NCBI RefSeq assembly: GCF_009795805.1
Contig: NZ_WTEY01000004.1
Coordinates: 62,001-126,000, forward strand
Length of the DNA: 64,000 nucleotides
Reading direction: 5' to 3'
Source of the DNA: Gilliamella sp. Pra-s52
GTDB taxonomy: Bacteria; Pseudomonadota; Gammaproteobacteria; Enterobacterales; Orbaceae
Within the stretch, counting starts at the first letter, position 1. Every line of letters starts with the position of its first letter. Under the pieces are notes generated by a model. The model saw nothing but the letters and a program-made list of their open reading frames with translations. It searched no databases and was not told the DNA's origin. This document shows positions 56,231 to 64,000 of the stretch, in pieces. A program made the position numbers and the translations under genes.

Positions 56231-57217
56231 ATGACAGAATTAACACAACAAAACGAAAAAGTAGAGTGTTTTACATTTGGCGATCGTGAGCCTTTAGCCG
56301 ATGCCAAAGACTTATTAAGTTATTTACAATGCACATCGTGCGGTAATTGGTATGAACCGCCAGTTAATTTTGATACGCTGGCTAATACCTTTAGTTCATC
56401 GTCATATCATAGCAGCCCGATTTATGTAAAACGAAATATCTTAACTAGTACATTTATTCCACATAAATATTTATCACGTCAGGCATTTGAGCGAATCGCT
56501 AATGATTTTTTAATATTGGGCAACTGCTATTTAGAAAAACGAACAAATATGCTAAAGCAAACCGAGGGGCTAAAACCAACACTGGCGAAATACACACGGC
56601 GAGGTGTTGAAGAAAACGAATATTGGTATATTGATAAATATTGGGAAGAGCATAAATTTAAAAAAGGTTCGGTTTGGCATATGCTAGCACCGGATATAAA
56701 CCAAGAAATTTACGGATTACCCGAATATTTAGCCGCCATTAATTCGGTTTGGCTTGATAACTCGGCTACCGTATTCCGTCAACGTTATTATAAAAATGGT
56801 TCGCATGCTGGGTTTATTTTATATTTGTCTAACCCATCACATAACGAAAAAGATATTGAAGAATTAAAGAAAGCATTACAAAGCAGTCGCGGACCAGGAA
56901 ACTTCCGTAATTTGCTCATGTACTCACCAAACGGTAAGCCAGATGGATTAAAACTAATACCCGTTGGAGAAGTGGCCGCTAAAGATAATTTTGCAGACAT
57001 TAAGTCAGTAAGCCAAGATGATATCTTAACTGCACACCGAGTGCCGCCATCATTAATGGGCATAACACCAAAAAACACAGGTGGATTTGGTGATCCAGAA
57101 AAAGCCTCTAAAGTATTTGCTCGTAATGAAATCAAACCGTTGCAAGATAGATTTTTACAGCTAAATGATTGGATGGGCGAGGAGGTTGTTAAATTTAATC
57201 CTTATAGTCTTGAATAA
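56231..57217 (+). CDS. Q: Portal protein gpQ
   Basis: 328 aa, P2 gpQ family portal vertex protein. CTSCGNWYEPPVNFDTLANT, LSRQAFERIANDFLILGNCY and HRVPPSLMGITPKNTGGFGD are characteristic. It starts 2 bp after P and ends with its own terminator. Confidence 0.96.
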   Translation: MTELTQQNEKVECFTFGDREPLADAKDLLSYLQCTSCGNWYEPPVNFDTLANTFSSSSYHSSPIYVKRNILTSTFIPHKYLSRQAFERIANDFLILGNCYLEKRTNMLKQTEGLKPTLAKYTRRGVEENEYWYIDKYWEEHKFKKGSVWHMLAPDINQEIYGLPEYLAAINSVWLDNSATVFRQRYYKNGSHAGFILYLSNPSHNEKDIEELKKALQSSRGPGNFRNLLMYSPNGKPDGLKLIPVGEVAAKDNFADIKSVSQDDILTAHRVPPSLMGITPKNTGGFGDPEKASKVFARNEIKPLQDRFLQLNDWMGEEVVKFNPYSLE

Positions 57218-57664: not shown

Positions 57665-58525
57665 ATGAAAACATTACGACTTGTTTTAGCTTGGCTTTTT
57701 GGTGTGCTTTTTATTTTATTAGGAATTGCAAATTTAACTCAAACCCCTTTGATAGGAATAGTAGCGCTATTAGTAGGTATATCACTATTACCGATAACTT
57801 ATCAAATCATTTATAAAAATACACAAAAAGAGGTAAGCTCTAAGAAAAAAGCGATAATAACCACAGTATTAATTGTTGTTTGGTTTATTATTTGTGGTAT
57901 AGAAGGAGGCAAAGAAAGAGAGGAACAAGAAAAAACCTTTATTTCAGAATTTAATTTAAATAAAAAAGAAATTGTTTCACAAATCAACCAATTGATAATA
58001 GAGAAAAAATATGATGAAGCGGTATCATTAGCTGATAAATATCACTCAGCTAAAGATCAAACGGTCTTAGAACTAGCAGATCAAGCTAGATTAGAGTTAC
58101 TAAAGCTTAAAAATCAGCAAAAAATTGATGATTTATTAAATAAACTTAAAGATGTTCCTGAAACTGAATTAGAAAAACAGATTGAATTATATGACGAGCT
58201 GTTAACCGTTGACCCAGAAAACTCAGAATATAAAACCCAAAATGCTAAATTGCAAAAAGAATTAGAACGGCAAAAACTGATTAATTCCCAATTTAGTTCT
58301 TGGGATGGTTCCCATAGAAATCTTGAAAAATATATAAAATCAAAAATGAATGATCCTGATTCATTCAAACATGTTGAAACCAAATATATTGATAATGGAA
58401 GTGATAATCTAATTATCATCACTTCATTTAGAGGGAAAAATGCTTTTGGTGGTGTTATTGTTAATACGGTAACAGCTACTGTTGATTTAGATGGAAATAT
58501 AACAAGTATTATCAGTTGGAAATAA
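57665..58525 (+). CDS. Membrane protein with coiled coil and conserved C-terminal domain (prophage accessory)
   Basis: 286 aa. Three membrane segments (about residues 5-24, 28-49 and 62-79), then a charged helical or TPR-like region (80-210), then a C-terminal domain with WDGSHRNLEKYIKSKMNDPD, SFKHVETKYID and GKNAFGGVIVN. I recognise this last domain only as a recurring part of small prophage and plasmid membrane or lipoproteins without assigned function. Its place between cos/Q and A is where P2 carries tin and old, so an exclusion or defence role is possible. Confidence 0.6.
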   Translation: MKTLRLVLAWLFGVLFILLGIANLTQTPLIGIVALLVGISLLPITYQIIYKNTQKEVSSKKKAIITTVLIVVWFIICGIEGGKEREEQEKTFISEFNLNKKEIVSQINQLIIEKKYDEAVSLADKYHSAKDQTVLELADQARLELLKLKNQQKIDDLLNKLKDVPETELEKQIELYDELLTVDPENSEYKTQNAKLQKELERQKLINSQFSSWDGSHRNLEKYIKSKMNDPDSFKHVETKYIDNGSDNLIIITSFRGKNAFGGVIVNTVTATVDLDGNITSIISWK

Positions 58526-58791: not shown

Positions 58792-59151
58792 CTACCCATG
58801 ATTGATATAATTAGAGATTGTTTTTTGTGATACCCCCAATATCATGGCTATATCTTTTTGTGTGTGTCCCTTTTTATATAATTGCTTAGCATTTTTCTTT
58901 CTATCTTCTATTGTATTTCCACTGTAGTGGGTAAATTTCATAATGGACAATGTTCCCACCTCTGATTTCATTGTATAAGATTCTCCATTAAAGTTTTTCC
59001 CTGAAATCTCTATACCATCTTCCGTCTTACTTATAGAACCAGTTTCAAGCCCAAAGTTCTGGAATAAATTTAAGGCATATTTTGTCATTTGATCTTGTAA
59101 TGGTTGTTTTTTAGATTTTGCTATTACTTTTGATTCAACTTTTTTATTCAT
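58792..59151 (-). CDS. HTH-domain protein (putative regulator)
   Basis: 119 aa. The C terminus is a clear helix-turn-helix of the recombinase/sigma-like type: NAKQLYKKGHTQKDIAMILG then VSQKTISNYIN (about residues 82-117). The N-terminal 75 residues (KYALNLFQNFGLETGSISKT, KNFNGESYTMKSEVG) have a beta-rich look and are unknown to me. It lies between the long and short small genes of the right module and has no counterpart in the left one. The operator-like repeats just upstream (59204-59262) suggest autoregulation. Confidence 0.65.
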   Translation of the reverse strand: MNKKVESKVIAKSKKQPLQDQMTKYALNLFQNFGLETGSISKTEDGIEISGKNFNGESYTMKSEVGTLSIMKFTHYSGNTIEDRKKNAKQLYKKGHTQKDIAMILGVSQKTISNYINHG

Positions 59152-59262: not shown

Positions 59263-59383
59263 ATTTTAGATTACTTAATATTGTATGTCAATTCTTTTTT
59301 AAATCTATATGAATCTAATGATCAAACGTATACCTCTCCTAAAACATCTTTACAAAATCAGCACAGTAATACGCTGGCTATTT

Positions 59384-59581
59384 TTATTTTGAACGTTCTA
59401 GCACATCACTTAGTAAATCCGCAATACAGCAAATTATAACCATAAAATCGGTGGGGGTTGAATGTGCGTTGATGCAATTACGGGCGATTGTTTCGGCTTG
59501 TTCGATTTTTGCAAAATTATTTAGATTGATGATAACGTTTTCTGATGTATCGACTGGTGTAATTTGTTTTGATATTTTCAT
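59384..59581 (-). CDS. Small prophage protein, LEQAE family (long form, right)
   Basis: 65 aa from MKISKQITPVDTSENVIINL at 59581; the longer frame from 59653 runs into the leader RNA structures. KIEQAETIARNCINA and ICCIADLLSDVL align with the left long protein (KLEQAELVTRLSINA, MCCVSDLLYDA). It is downstream of the right C4-like RNA. Overall identity to the left copy is modest while the RNA leader is better conserved, suggesting the RNA is under stronger constraint than the protein. Confidence 0.62.
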   Translation of the reverse strand: MKISKQITPVDTSENVIINLNNFAKIEQAETIARNCINAHSTPTDFMVIICCIADLLSDVLERSK

Positions 59582-59639
59582 AATATTATATCCGTTGATA
59601 ATGTTTAAACTATCACCACCAAATCTGCGAAAATATGGA
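59582..59639 (-). promoter_or_regulatory. Second target box and imperfect palindrome of right module
   Basis: The box TTCGCAG (minus strand, 59631-59625) is perfectly complementary to CTGCGAA in the RNA at 59656-59662. An imperfect TGATA...TATCA dyad (59596-59615) occupies the place of the left module's 20-bp palindrome. Confidence 0.6.
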
Positions 59640-59711
59640 GGTGAACTAAGCAAGGTTCGCAGTACCGCTCAACGAAACGGCGAGTCTTTCGACTCCCTCA
59701 CTTAGCCCACC
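59640..59711 (-). ncRNA. C4/CI-like antisense RNA, right copy
   Basis: A 72-nt element with the same closing stem GGTG-GG-CTAAG / CTTAG-TT-CACC as the left copy. The inner hairpin is GAGTC-GAAA-GACTC, a compensatory C-G to T-A change relative to the left. The antisense box CTGCGAACCTTG (plus coordinates 59651-59662) matches 11 of 12 positions to its own upstream target (59785-59796). The left RNA's box would mispair here. Confidence 0.7.
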
Positions 59712-59816
59712 ATAGAAAAGACATGACTAAGCTTTACGCATAAAAATACCGCTGACGCGGTTTATACGCCGTTGAACTAACAAGCTGCGAAACTTGACGT
59801 TAGATTTTGCTAACGT
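59712..59816 (-). promoter_or_regulatory. Structured leader of right module
   Basis: On the minus strand, the 5' hairpin ACGTTAG/CTAACGT (59816-59797) covaries with the left copy's GCACTAG/CTAGTGC. Next are the target box CAAGTTTCGCAG (59796-59785) and a terminator-like stem ACCGC-GTCA-GCGGT followed by ATTTTTA, within TATAAA...TTTATGC flanks. Confidence 0.65.
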
Positions 59817-59822
59817 ATTTTT

Positions 59823-59852
59823 ACTATATATCGATTTTAGTTTTATTGTCAA
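59823..59852 (-). promoter_or_regulatory. Sigma70-type promoter of right C4-like module
   Basis: -35 TTGACA (59852-59847), 18-bp spacer, -10 TATAGT (59828-59823). The predicted start near 59816 is the first base of the leader hairpin, as in the left copy. Confidence 0.72.
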
Positions 59853-59924
59853 CATGTGTATTTATCTTGATTTATCCAAACGGTATACAATCCTGAATGT
59901 TTTTTACAAAGTTTAGCTTTGTTT

Positions 59925-60704
59925 TTATAAATATCGGCTTAACTCCATAAGTTTATTTATTTCTTGTTTAAACTCGTCTGCGCTTTTAAATCTTTCATCA
60001 GCATTTAATGCTGTTGCTTTTTTGATAATTTTATCTGCAATACTATTACTATCGCCATTTATTGAGTTCAAATATTTAAATACTTTTCCAACTGAATAAA
60101 TATCTGTCTGTGCATTTGCTATATAACCTTGTCTTGATTCTGGTGAATAAAATTGGTTATAACATGAATAACATCGATGTAGTGGAATAGCCCAAGAGCT
60201 TGGCTCTGATAGCTTTACTTCATTTTCTGAAACGAATATGTTGTGAGGACTGATATTTTGATGAAAAAGACCATATTCATGGCAATGAATTAAAGCAGAT
60301 AATACGCAATAAATAATCCTGTAACGCTCAAGCATTGGAATATATTTAAGCGTTCTTTCTTCTAATGAAATACAATCAAAATAATCAACATCTAGCGCTA
60401 TATAATCAAAGCCGATCACATCAGTAAATACATTTATTTCATTTATAGTTAGAATGTTAGTATGTTGACTGATTTCTTTTATTCTGAAATGCTTCATATC
60501 ATCAAGTATTTTTTGAGTTGTAATGTTTGGAGTATCTGCAAAATAAAAAAATCTAACTATTTTACTTTTTTTAGATTTGCGATCATATGTAAAAAAAGTT
60601 ACATCGTCGCCACCTCTTGAAAGTTCATTTCTTACTATATAACGCCTTAATAATGTGTTTTTAAATCTTCTCAAATACTCTCTTGCATCTCTATTTTTCA
60701 TCAT
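59925..60704 (-). CDS. Protein-kinase-fold protein, predicted pseudokinase
   Basis: 259 aa. The Ser/Thr kinase fold is recognisable from the LRRYIVRNELSRGGDD lobe, the HRD-like loop FHQNISPHNIFV (residues 147-158), the SPE triplet (187-189, APE position), QTDIYSVGKVF (199-209, subdomain IX) and the C-terminal KATALNADERFKSADEFKQE. The catalytic Asp of HRD is Asn150, DFG is replaced by EPS (167-169), and no lysine stands at the VAIK position. It is coupled to gpA by the overlap TAATG. P2 and its relatives carry phage-exclusion genes in this zone, so a decoy or sensor role is possible. Confidence 0.7.
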   Translation of the reverse strand: MMKNRDAREYLRRFKNTLLRRYIVRNELSRGGDDVTFFTYDRKSKKSKIVRFFYFADTPNITTQKILDDMKHFRIKEISQHTNILTINEINVFTDVIGFDYIALDVDYFDCISLEERTLKYIPMLERYRIIYCVLSALIHCHEYGLFHQNISPHNIFVSENEVKLSEPSSWAIPLHRCYSCYNQFYSPESRQGYIANAQTDIYSVGKVFKYLNSINGDSNSIADKIIKKATALNADERFKSADEFKQEINKLMELSRYL

Positions 60705-63067
60705 TACACCTTTTTATAGTTGACTAAAATATTCGGATTTTTGAGCCAATCACTAAATTTAATATTTTTCTTTTCTAAGTATTTAAAAATTTCATCTAAT
60801 AGGTCACCAGATTTTTTTGGTTTTGAATTATCTTTTTTCACCAATAATGTAGGTTTATCGGCAATTTTAGTTTTAGGTGCTGTTACCATGATTTCATCCA
60901 ATATTTTTAAATATTCCATATTTTTATCATTTTCTTCAGGATCCGATGTTTTTATTAATAATTTTTCTCGGTCTTTATTTATCGCAACTTTTACTTTTCC
61001 ACGGTTTTTTAATAACCTACAATCACTAGAAGAATAATATGGCAAATTTAGATAAACTAGATAATTGTCTAATATTTTTACACATAAGTTTTCGTTAAAA
61101 CTAATCAATTTACCTGCTAGCAAACTGTCAATATGGTAATTTCTAAATTTTATTTGATGTTTTTTTAGCTCATTTATCACTTTTTGACGTCGATCGTCCT
61201 GCGGTGATTTTTTAACCTCCGTACAGTTATTGACAGAACTCCGAGCGTCGCTATCGCTCCTATTTTTAGAGACGATCGCCCACTTGATCAGACGTGTACA
61301 AATAAAAGAGGCCATGCCAACAATCGGCGAAAATACGCCTTTTATTTTTTTAACTTCTTCCTCGAATTGATTTTGTGTTTCTTCGTAAGAAACTCTGACA
61401 CGTAAGTCTTTACGCTGCACCATAGCACCGCCTTGTAACTGAGTGTAAGCAGCCCAATCGCCGGCATCTGCTGCCGCTAGTACTGGGTCGATTGCAGGGC
61501 TTTCGACTTTTTGACTGCCAAGTCTACGAAGTTCACGCCAAACCGTGACAGGTGCGCCACCGATTTGCTGGAATTGACGAATACCCCAACGACTAGCCCA
61601 AGCAGTCACATTTTTTGCCATTTCTTTTAGATTTTGCCCAGTTTCGTCATCGACTTCGTTATCAAGTTGATAACCGTCGATATTTTTAGAAATATATTTA
61701 GCAATGTAACCCGTTGCCGAGCCTTTCTCTTTTTCGATATTTTCAAACTTAAAGCGAGCGTACTGCGCACCTTGTTCTCCGCCGTCTTCTTCTAGTGCAT
61801 AAGCTTGCATAATTTTATAAACCTGCTGTTTGTGTTCTGGTAGCATAAAAACTAAAATATGCCAATGCGGCGTGCCGTCATGATGCGGTTCGGCAACTCT
61901 AAACCCAAAAATTTTTATACGCTCCCTGTTCAGTTTTGCCCGGATTTTTGCCCATACGCTACATAAATAACGCTGCGTGTCTCGTGGTGTGCCGCCGTTC
62001 CAGTTTTTGACAAATCCGCCTTTAGCGTGTACTGAGTGATATTTTGACGGCGCAGTCAATGTTATAAATGCCCCCTCATAGCCATACTCGTCGGCGATAT
62101 CCTCAAATCCACGCATACGGACCATAAGCTCACAACGGCGGATTGCAGGGTTAGCATTGGATTTATCGACCTGTAAAACAAGTTCAAATTGCTCGCCTGT
62201 TTCAGTATTTTCTATACATTGATTTTTGAGCCATTCCCGATTTTTCCTTTTTTGCTCTTTCCATTCACCCACGCACGTGCGACTTGCATAAGGGCTTGCG
62301 TGCTTTTGTACTTGTCCGGCAGCAATAGCCAAATGCTCACGTTGAAAACCCCATTTCCGCTTTAATCTGCTTTGCCACCATTTATCATCTGATAATTTAG
62401 CTAGCGCGATAACAATTTGCTGTTCACTGATTTCACCTTTTTTATAATCAGCAAAGTAGGGCGCTGTAATTTTTAACGGCTTGAGCTGCTCTAATGCAAA
62501 TTTATAGATAGCTAATTCATGAGCGTTATTGCTCAACTTAAATTCATCAGTTTCTAAAAACTTGATAATGAGATTGTGCATATAGCCGGCAATCTTCCCG
62601 CCAAGTTCTTCAACGTCGATTTTGTCTAAAGTTGGTAATATCGACAGCTGTTTATAGAATTCTTGTACAATCAGGCTTTTCCCGGCATTTTCGATTGCGT
62701 ATTGCTGCTGCACTTCGGTGCAACGAGTTAGCCCACAAGTGCGTAAATAGGTGTTAGCAACTTTTGAACCCTTTTCTTGATATAGCGTTAGATATTTTCT
62801 AGCGAAGTATCTACCAATAAACAAGGGAGAATCACTAAAATACGGGTGAAAATAATCATATTCATGTGGTATCTGCTCCCAAAGTGGACGCTCAATAATA
62901 GTCAATTCTTTGGGTGGTCTGCGACCTGTGGCGTATTGTGATTTTGGCTGAATGTGTTTTGTTGGTAAAAACTTGCCGACTGTATCGTAAAAATCACGCA
63001 TACAAGAAAGCAGGGCATATTTAACCCTGTGATTTAATGTTGGTAGGTTTTGCGTGATTATGGTCAT
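60704..63067 (-). CDS. A: Replication endonuclease gpA
   Basis: 787 aa, slightly longer than P2 gpA (761). It is the HUH rolling-circle initiator, with metal-binding HWH at 401-403 and the two catalytic tyrosines in GYIAKYISKNIDGY (Y454 and Y458; P2 Y450 and Y454). The extra length lies in the C terminus (a Lys-rich region with KKDNSKPKKSGDLLDEIFKY), which abuts the pseudokinase gene. It nicks the origin, which in P2 lies within A itself. Confidence 0.95.
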   Translation of the reverse strand: MTIITQNLPTLNHRVKYALLSCMRDFYDTVGKFLPTKHIQPKSQYATGRRPPKELTIIERPLWEQIPHEYDYFHPYFSDSPLFIGRYFARKYLTLYQEKGSKVANTYLRTCGLTRCTEVQQQYAIENAGKSLIVQEFYKQLSILPTLDKIDVEELGGKIAGYMHNLIIKFLETDEFKLSNNAHELAIYKFALEQLKPLKITAPYFADYKKGEISEQQIVIALAKLSDDKWWQSRLKRKWGFQREHLAIAAGQVQKHASPYASRTCVGEWKEQKRKNREWLKNQCIENTETGEQFELVLQVDKSNANPAIRRCELMVRMRGFEDIADEYGYEGAFITLTAPSKYHSVHAKGGFVKNWNGGTPRDTQRYLCSVWAKIRAKLNRERIKIFGFRVAEPHHDGTPHWHILVFMLPEHKQQVYKIMQAYALEEDGGEQGAQYARFKFENIEKEKGSATGYIAKYISKNIDGYQLDNEVDDETGQNLKEMAKNVTAWASRWGIRQFQQIGGAPVTVWRELRRLGSQKVESPAIDPVLAAADAGDWAAYTQLQGGAMVQRKDLRVRVSYEETQNQFEEEVKKIKGVFSPIVGMASFICTRLIKWAIVSKNRSDSDARSSVNNCTEVKKSPQDDRRQKVINELKKHQIKFRNYHIDSLLAGKLISFNENLCVKILDNYLVYLNLPYYSSSDCRLLKNRGKVKVAINKDREKLLIKTSDPEENDKNMEYLKILDEIMVTAPKTKIADKPTLLVKKDNSKPKKSGDLLDEIFKYLEKKNIKFSDWLKNPNILVNYKKV

Positions 63068-63347: not shown

Positions 63348-64000
63348 CTAAATCATATCCGGCGTTAACACGCCAATAATCTCTTTTGCAGGTTGTCGAT
63401 TACCGTTAGCGGCAACTGACCGAGTGGCGTCGATTTCGTAGATTTCGAAATCACTAAAAATACCTCTTACTATTGTGTTGTTACTGTTTGATACGATTGC
63501 AGTTGCTCCACGCCTGACAGCATGAACCAGCAAATCACGCAATAACTTCGTGACTGGGTAATTGAACTTATGGGGAGTGTAGCCAGTAAAAATATCGTTT
63601 TTAGTGCCCGAAATGTACGGCGGATCGCAATAAATAACGTCGCCTGCTTCGGCCATTTCTATCGCTGCCCTAAAGTCTGCCGCCATTAATGTAACTGGGA
63701 CGGAAATCAGCTTGTTGCTGAATTCGATTAGTTCAGCCTTGGGAAAGTAAACCTTTTTATATTTGCCATGTGGCACGTTAAACTCACCTTTTTGGTTATA
63801 ACGGCAAACACCGTTAAAGCAATGGCGATTTAAATAGATAAACTCAGCGGCACGTTCTAACGTAAAGGGTTGCGTTATGTTGCAATTAAAGCGGCAACGA
63901 ACTTCATAAAAATCGATGTCACTATCAAATAGTGATTGAGCGGTATTTACTAATTTGACTAAATCATCACGTAACCAACGATAAACGTTAATTAAATCAC
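63348..64000 (-). CDS. dam: DNA adenine methylase (Dam family), 5' end outside window
   Basis: Partial: about 217 C-terminal codons, open to the window edge. Dam-family segments are YLNRHCFNGVCRYNQKGEFN and VPHGKYKKVYFPKAELIEF, and the catalytic DPPY motif is in VIYCDPPYISG. The frame does not begin at the GTG at 63776, since it stays open upstream with clear homology. The N-terminal SAM-binding FxGxG part lies beyond the edge. Phage Dam enzymes methylate GATC, which can protect DNA from host nucleases. Confidence 0.92.
   Translation of the reverse strand, partial: DLINVYRWLRDDLVKLVNTAQSLFDSDIDFYEVRCRFNCNITQPFTLERAAEFIYLNRHCFNGVCRYNQKGEFNVPHGKYKKVYFPKAELIEFSNKLISVPVTLMAADFRAAIEMAEAGDVIYCDPPYISGTKNDIFTGYTPHKFNYPVTKLLRDLLVHAVRRGATAIVSNSNNTIVRGIFSDFEIYEIDATRSVAANGNRQPAKEIIGVLTPDMI

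Follow-up and report, generated by a model that had tools for sequence, protein, structure and literature searches.

A conserved accessory pseudokinase gene in the antiviral hotspot of a P2-like Gilliamella prophage

Gene organization of the locus

We analysed a 64,000-nucleotide stretch of DNA from Gilliamella sp. Pra-s52, hereafter referred to as the window, which carries a P2-like prophage: capsid, scaffold, terminase, portal, sheath, tape measure and baseplate proteins were recognized among the ten window proteins tested. Directly behind gpA, the gene of the replication initiator, and on the same strand lies a gene for a 259-residue homologue of Hanks-type protein kinases (Table 1), with the portal gene located further on at 56231-57217(+). 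The gene is thus placed between A and Q, as the sequence-only reading had proposed. The available parts of two reports describe this gpA-gpQ region as a hotspot of diverse anti-phage systems including tin and old (PMC9122126, PMC9519451), and one of them states that eight additional systems from the P2 hotspot were cloned, three of which were active (PMC9122126).

Matches to the isrK and C4 RNA families are arranged in tandem behind a promoter-like site with 11 of 12 consensus positions and are followed by a 65-aa open reading frame (59384-59581). The same pair of RNA families was found at two (L027 and L030) of the 16 further loci searched. In the Salmonella prophage Gifsy-1, isrK works in a toxic antiterminator circuit, according to the available part of the report (PMC4825925).

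Table 1. Features of the pseudokinase locus (positions in the window)
Feature	Position	Strand	Description
gpA	60704-63067	-	P2-type replication initiator, 787 aa; PF05840 6.1e-108; phrog_91 1.4e-231
Extra C-terminal gpA tail	60707-61042	-	Low GC; residues 676-787; ends in DLLDEIFKYLEKKNIKFSDWLKNPNIL and a few residues
Block homologous to the wkB308 prophage	59414-60799	-	79.8% nucleotide identity over 1395 alignment columns
AGGTGTAATG	60702-60711	-	Ribosome-binding-like sequence with gpA stop and pseudokinase start
Pseudokinase gene	59925-60704	-	259 aa, ATG start; R51, N150, E167; N155 kept
Sigma-70-like promoter match	59823-59852	-	11/12 consensus positions; 3' of the pseudokinase, before isrK
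isrK RNA family match	59742-59816	-	RF01394; downstream edge of the cargo slot
C4 antisense RNA family match	59634-59717	-	RF01695

Loss of the catalytic residues

The kinase homology is evident from several searches. The protein matched the Pfam family Pkinase with an E-value of 6.3e-9 and a score of 36.1 bits, which exceeds the curated threshold of 31.7, and the serine-threonine kinase family phrog_2361 with 4.1e-13, and it matched 873 distinct PDB sequences at E<=10, with titin kinase at the top (1.7e-7). The positions of the kinase motifs were derived from an alignment with motif-keeping kinases of phages, plasmids and prophages. In this alignment, HRDxKPxN corresponds to H148-Q-N150-I-S152-P-H-N155, in which the Asp and the Lys are gone and Asn155 is retained, DFG corresponds to E167-P-S, and the Lys of strand beta3 (VAIK) corresponds to Arg51. 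The alignment thus bears out the earlier recognition of HRD changed to HQN, DFG changed to EPS and a missing VAIK lysine. All three replacements, Arg51 for the beta3 Lys, Asn150 for the catalytic Asp and Glu167 for the metal-binding Asp, are shared by the only close relative found, encoded in Gilliamella sp. wkB308. The glycine loop reads SRGGDD, and both Pro188-Glu189 of the APE motif and Asp201 of helix F are retained, position 201 being Glu in the wkB308 copy.

Each catalytic residue has been exchanged in a near-isosteric manner (K to R, D to N and D to E). K to R and D to N are the changes usually introduced in the laboratory to obtain dead kinases. Judging from the changed residues, the protein would be unable to transfer phosphate, and a displaced active site is excluded as far as the alignment goes. 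The activation loop is shortened, the C-lobe is compact, and the 259 residues hold no further domain. The base composition of the gene resembles that of cargo, with 29% GC as compared with 42% for gpA 1-600 of the window and 49% for the same part of gpA in wkB308.

Predicted structure

A model was calculated with AlphaFold (AF2) from a 19-sequence alignment composed of the window protein, the wkB308 protein and 17 kinases with HRD and DFG from IMG/VR loci. For this model, pLDDT was 83.1 and pTM 0.83, and values of pLDDT below 50 were confined to residues 1-4 and to the activation loop (169-181). With the two family members alone, pLDDT was 35.9. The 17 kinases in the alignment may steer the model, but the evidence from sequence does not depend on it. 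Foldseek placed PknB first (E 2.2e-14), and VIA-align gave PknA with a Z-score of 24.9 (2.7 A over 238 residues) and PknB with 24.7 (over 231 residues), where differences of up to 1 from PknA/PknB count as ties; kinases of eukaryotes, for instance MerTK and EGFR, are among the tied matches. Structure prediction and comparison, which had been suggested as a check on the sequence-only reading, therefore returned a canonical protein kinase fold led by PknA and PknB. We regard it as highly likely that the 259-aa protein is a dead kinase fold.

Relatives and purifying selection

The family to which the protein belongs is small. When 60 relatives were searched at 1e-10, three genomes matched: the own genome, wkB308 with a protein of 76% identity, and a third (2.8e-11) whose protein is a kinase with HADLKPEN. 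Among 44 genomes of the bacterial family, three matched at E<=0.001, two of them with the pseudokinase itself and the other with a kinase having HRD and DFG (23% identity, 7e-8). Twelve of 394 genomes of the order matched at 1e-9, namely the two family members and ten others with E-values no better than 1.1e-12. The HRD-type Asp was kept in all of the best 25 of 485 frames scored with phmmer. None of the kinases compared stands out as a near relative of the pseudokinase, the best scores being at most 48 bits. Homologues in phage records (32) and plasmid records (14) were all below 60% identity, two loci were found in IMG/VR, one of them 100% identical, and a search of genome contigs yielded one locus, that of wkB308.

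The window and wkB308 genes differ at 136 nucleotides in 259 codons with neither an indel nor a stop codon, and dN/dS for this single pair is 0.243 (bootstrap 95% 0.156-0.352). Since both copies have lost the same residues and are under purifying selection, decay of the gene is unlikely, on the evidence of one pair. Judged from this pair, the pseudokinase appears to be maintained.

We also considered descent from a family of compact prophage kinases that are paired with PP2C-like phosphatases, which have the same compact C-lobe. This origin was not retained: the pair sits on a very long branch of the tree with low support nearby, and the top phmmer scores belong to other kinases of the order.

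The gpA junction and expression

The last base of the gpA TAA is the A of the pseudokinase ATG, which gives an overlap of one base. The TAATG overlap recognized in the sequence-only reading is thus present, although the term fused used there is wrong because gpA and the pseudokinase are in different frames. The overlap itself is not conserved, since 8 nt separate the gpA stop from the pseudokinase start in wkB308. Common to both copies is the start context AGGTG(N)AATG (AGGTGTAATG in the window and AGGTGGAATG in wkB308), which occurs once exactly in the window and 18 times with one mismatch, as compared with 15.4 in shuffled sequences (no excess).

Within 60704-61300, the range just upstream of the pseudokinase that was scanned, there is no promoter-like site on the minus strand. 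In addition to the match before isrK, another 11/12 promoter-like match lies at 59291, downstream of the pseudokinase. The scan found 10 sites in total against 16.8 in shuffles, so little can be concluded from whether a match is present or not. The lack of a site in the scanned range suggests that the pseudokinase probably depends on the gpA transcript, and we consider its co-expression with gpA likely. The P2 genes tin and old have promoters of their own, and the early operon of P2, including gpA, is expected to be silent in the lysogen. Dependence on the gpA transcript would fit expression in the lytic phase better than immunity in a resting lysogen.

The C-terminal tail of gpA

Both pseudokinase-linked gpA proteins extend about 110 residues past residue 675, and the other copies read are 676 to 733 aa long in total. 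In the set of gpA proteins compared, a tail of this length is limited to the two that precede a pseudokinase. The middle of the tail (671-760) is 33% identical between the window and wkB308 over 82 aligned codons, as opposed to 79% for the 24 aligned of the last 27 residues. The terminal motif also occurs in mid-tail in a gpA protein from another genus of the family (G065), in whose genome no relative of the pseudokinase was found. Across 394 genomes of the order, strong matches to the motif were restricted to G000, G065 and wkB308 (G013), and 11 further genomes matched at E-values of 0.006-0.01 on short pieces, which we took as chance. Among 50,697 phage records, the best E-value was 3 for the tail and 0.2 for its last 48 residues, and IMG/VR gave nothing for the tail and the motif beyond the same two contigs.

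The possibility that the conserved end of gpA is a docking peptide for the pseudokinase was weakened by the G065 motif and by the block boundary at 60799. Because the block shared with wkB308 begins about 31 codons before the gpA stop, the conserved end needs no docking role. The gpA tails are mosaic: in an alignment of 10 copies (L026-L033, L040 and L050), a common SVNNCT segment is followed by at least three different types of tail.

An exchangeable slot behind gpA

Of the 35 Gilliamella genomes, 13 contain gpA, at 16 places in total, and the pseudokinase follows it at two of these places; conservation as an obligate replication factor in all relatives, which the sequence-only reading had named as an observation that would speak against it, is thus not what we found. 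More distant PF05840 matches are present in Gilliamella (two, G034:C11 and G010:C90) and in G067 (one). The DNA behind gpA was read at 14 of the 16 places; the remaining two, both in one genome (G015), are a fragment and a copy for which no intact gpA was found. The slot contains the pseudokinase in two cases, a 145-147-aa protein in two others (L028 and L031), and other open reading frames or nothing recognizable in the rest. The most informative comparison is with the sibling prophage L027, which has a matching gpA and a matching isrK-C4 segment, but a 62-aa open reading frame in the slot. Its gpA matches the window up to 61192, the DNA match resumes from 59853 at the isrK promoter, and its gpA stop is 224 nt away from isrK, compared with 887 nt in both pseudokinase prophages.

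The block homologous to wkB308 comprises the last ~31 codons of gpA, the pseudokinase, isrK, C4 and a small open reading frame. Silent sites between the window and wkB308 are saturated in the gpA core (pS 0.78) compared with the pseudokinase (0.39). Because the identity of the block is high while the silent sites of the gpA core are saturated, the pseudokinase, the last ~31 gpA codons and isrK-C4 appear to have a common history that is younger than that of the gpA core. We consider it very likely that the pseudokinase is accessory, exchangeable cargo.

Comparison with known kinase systems

The pseudokinase shares its whole fold with the Hanks-type kinases PknA and PknB and differs from them by the three catalytic changes, the short activation loop and the compact C-lobe. 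PADLOC reported matches to the defence kinases PD-T4-6 (9.5e-14) and Stk2 (4.6e-12); the catalytic residues are absent from the protein. In a control with seven further proteins, the wkB308 copy gave 4.9e-11 and all six kinases from other contexts matched PD-T4-6 at 3.4e-30 to 5.2e-49. Since these control kinases score far better, the match represents a generic kinase signal, and membership in PD-T4-6 or Stk2 was dropped.

The kinds of prophage-encoded kinase that come nearest are found in KKP (PfkA-PfkB-PfpC), which controls prophage and defence according to the available part of its description (PMC11341870), and in pairs of a compact kinase and a PP2C-like protein (L066-L089). The compact prophage kinases have, as judged by eye, the same short stretch between helices F and H as the pseudokinase. 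However, the KKP and kinase-PP2C sequences compared have HRD, DFG and a phosphatase-like neighbour, whereas the pseudokinase has neither these motifs nor such a neighbour: no PP2C-type phosphatase gene adjoins it, its neighbours being gpA and the isrK/C4 module.

The compact prophage kinases (e.g. L066:2495-3999) are about 245 aa long and are followed by a gene that is PP2C-like by eye; the kinase stop and the start of this gene overlap by four bases in eight full neighbourhoods (L066, L078, L080, L081, L083, L084, L087 and L089). The same kind of pair, with an annotated PP2C, occurs on a Vibrio plasmid with a one-base overlap, and no relatives of this Vibrio kinase appeared in the scan. The Klebsiella Peduoviridae phage Kp4865-2 (L023:2938-6129) has two kinase genes lined up with a gene that, by eye, looks like a phosphatase gene, in a KKP-like arrangement.

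Bacterial pseudokinases have been grouped into the families ActPs1-3, DLHK, GLW, CP1 and DYD, beside which we set the present protein by description only, as given in the available part of a review (PMC12599244). Loss of all three motifs also occurs in these families, for instance in a CP1 member in Table 1 of that review, whose main text does not contain the word phage (PMC12599244). In PglW and some DndF proteins, an inactive kinase is paired with an active kinase in a defence protein, as described in the accessible portion of another article (PMC12839542). There, the dead kinase is a domain within a large multi-domain protein, whereas here it is a free-standing phage gene. No free-standing, phage-maintained pseudokinase of this kind came up among the papers listed in our literature searches, which did not extend to every subscription journal.

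Other kinases in Gilliamella

PF00069 was detected at 1e-4 in 13 of the 35 Gilliamella genomes, in 11 of them over the cut-off. Six of them have the kinase domain in a long frame (2,090 to 2,098 aa), the most frequent kinase-bearing candidate for a defence protein in Gilliamella, and a seventh has it in a frame of 987 aa. One of the six is G012, whose protein of 2,085 aa (L129:4331-10588) contains DUF4011, a helicase domain and REase_MTES_1575 in addition to the kinase domain; it matches three defence candidates, PDC-S37, Hhe and MkoA. The kinase domain of this G012 protein, the one copy read, has HCDLRPNN but GFG for DFG, a change that resembles the DLHK row in the available part of the pseudokinase review (PMC12599244), and the protein may itself be inactive. 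We therefore dropped the kinase-helicase protein of about 2,090 aa as an active-kinase target of the pseudokinase. In both genomes that carry the pseudokinase, no other protein matched PF00069 at E<=1e-4, and thus no target kinase is seen beside it. Kinase-type defence candidates thus exist in Gilliamella, and targeting of them by the pseudokinase is nowhere indicated.

Possible function of the pseudokinase

In our judgement, the phage pseudokinase is real, accessory and conserved, and it occupies a known hotspot; with two family members, its conservation is judged from one pair. Phage defence is an established role of kinases, and dead kinases have regulatory functions in animals, in plants and in certain bacteria. 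We propose that the gene is exchangeable cargo between gpA and the isrK/C4 module of the P2-like Gilliamella prophage. It is probably translated from the gpA message, in which case the protein would appear alongside the replication proteins in the early lytic phase. Being presumably unable to transfer phosphate, the protein might act by binding a partner. This partner would most likely come from the conflict between phage and host or between phages; it could be a kinase that acts in defence, the substrate of such a kinase, or a protein encoded by a different phage. Of the forms that the protein could take, we favour a decoy or naturally dominant-negative kinase. What the hotspot contributes to a possible conflict role is location, and the inactive kinase within the defence proteins PglW and some DndF also speaks for such a role. 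As a whole, a dead Hanks-type kinase carried as cargo and acting as a non-catalytic binder in phage conflict is the best explanation we can offer, possible yet somewhat short of probable. A more specific version seems quite improbable, namely that a phage captured a kinase, which lost its three catalytic residues, and that the resulting dominant-negative protein, made together with the initiator, disarms kinase immunity or its substrates during replication. Both this decoy reading and the best explanation were rated slightly lower because the kinase-helicase protein has GFG for DFG. If the decoy were true, it would be a phage counterpart of the pseudokinases used by animal pathogens and would give a handle on which kinase defences matter in bee-gut bacteria.

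The hotspot location is shared with genes such as tin and old, as far as the hotspot reports are available (PMC9122126, PMC9519451), and might suggest a superinfection exclusion gene of the lysogen that senses or blocks an incoming phage. Counting against this, the gene immediately follows gpA on the same strand, and gpA should be silent in the lysogen; the lack of a promoter-like site within 60704-61300, for what such scans are worth, points the same way. We consider an exclusion gene unlikely. The pseudokinase could instead have gpA as its partner, binding the special tail and tuning replication of the phage lineage. Adjacency in both members, the long tail limited to these two among the gpA copies compared and the better conservation of its last residues than of mid-tail are consistent with such a role. 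However, the mid-tail motif in a genome with no pseudokinase relative found and the start of the shared block, which explains the conserved end, speak against it, as does the lack of this end in the gpA of the other phages, and an accessory gpA partner is, in our view, unlikely.

Two further alternatives concern the protein itself. The active-site losses and the few known copies might be taken to indicate a functionless remnant of an active kinase in decay, which the low dN/dS, the intact frame and the identical losses in both copies render very improbable. A kinase-fold enzyme with another chemistry, such as the SelO-type AMPylation raised in the sequence-only reading, is conceivable insofar as the fold, Asn155 and the acidic residue at the DFG position are kept, so that binding of nucleotide and metal would be possible. 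In Pfam, however, the only families matched at E<=1 were Pkinase and PK_Tyr_Ser-Thr, with no SelO among them, and the top structural matches are canonical protein kinases. SelO is not among the 50 structural matches listed, a range that would still leave room for it. Arg for Lys and Asn for Asp are standard kinase-dead changes, and the activation loop is both shortened and poorly predicted. Such a chemistry is, we believe, very improbable.

Other genes in the window

A second candidate for cargo between A and Q is a neighbour of the portal gene and runs in the opposite direction to gpA (57665-58525(+)). It encodes a 286-aa protein with a hydrophobic N-terminus, as judged by eye, that has no Pfam family at 0.001 and matches phrog_3403 (unknown function) in its C-terminal part with 1.2e-23. 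At 58792-59151(-), a 119-aa protein has a C-terminal helix-turn-helix like that of the terminase gpP (PF06056 4.4e-6); the wkB308 prophage has no such open reading frame of at least 60 aa at this place. A D12-type adenine methylase open reading frame of 142 aa (63348-63776(-)) matches only the C-terminal half of the Pfam family. The corresponding place in wkB308 holds a 282-aa open reading frame, and the window copy, which lies near the edge of the window, looks truncated.
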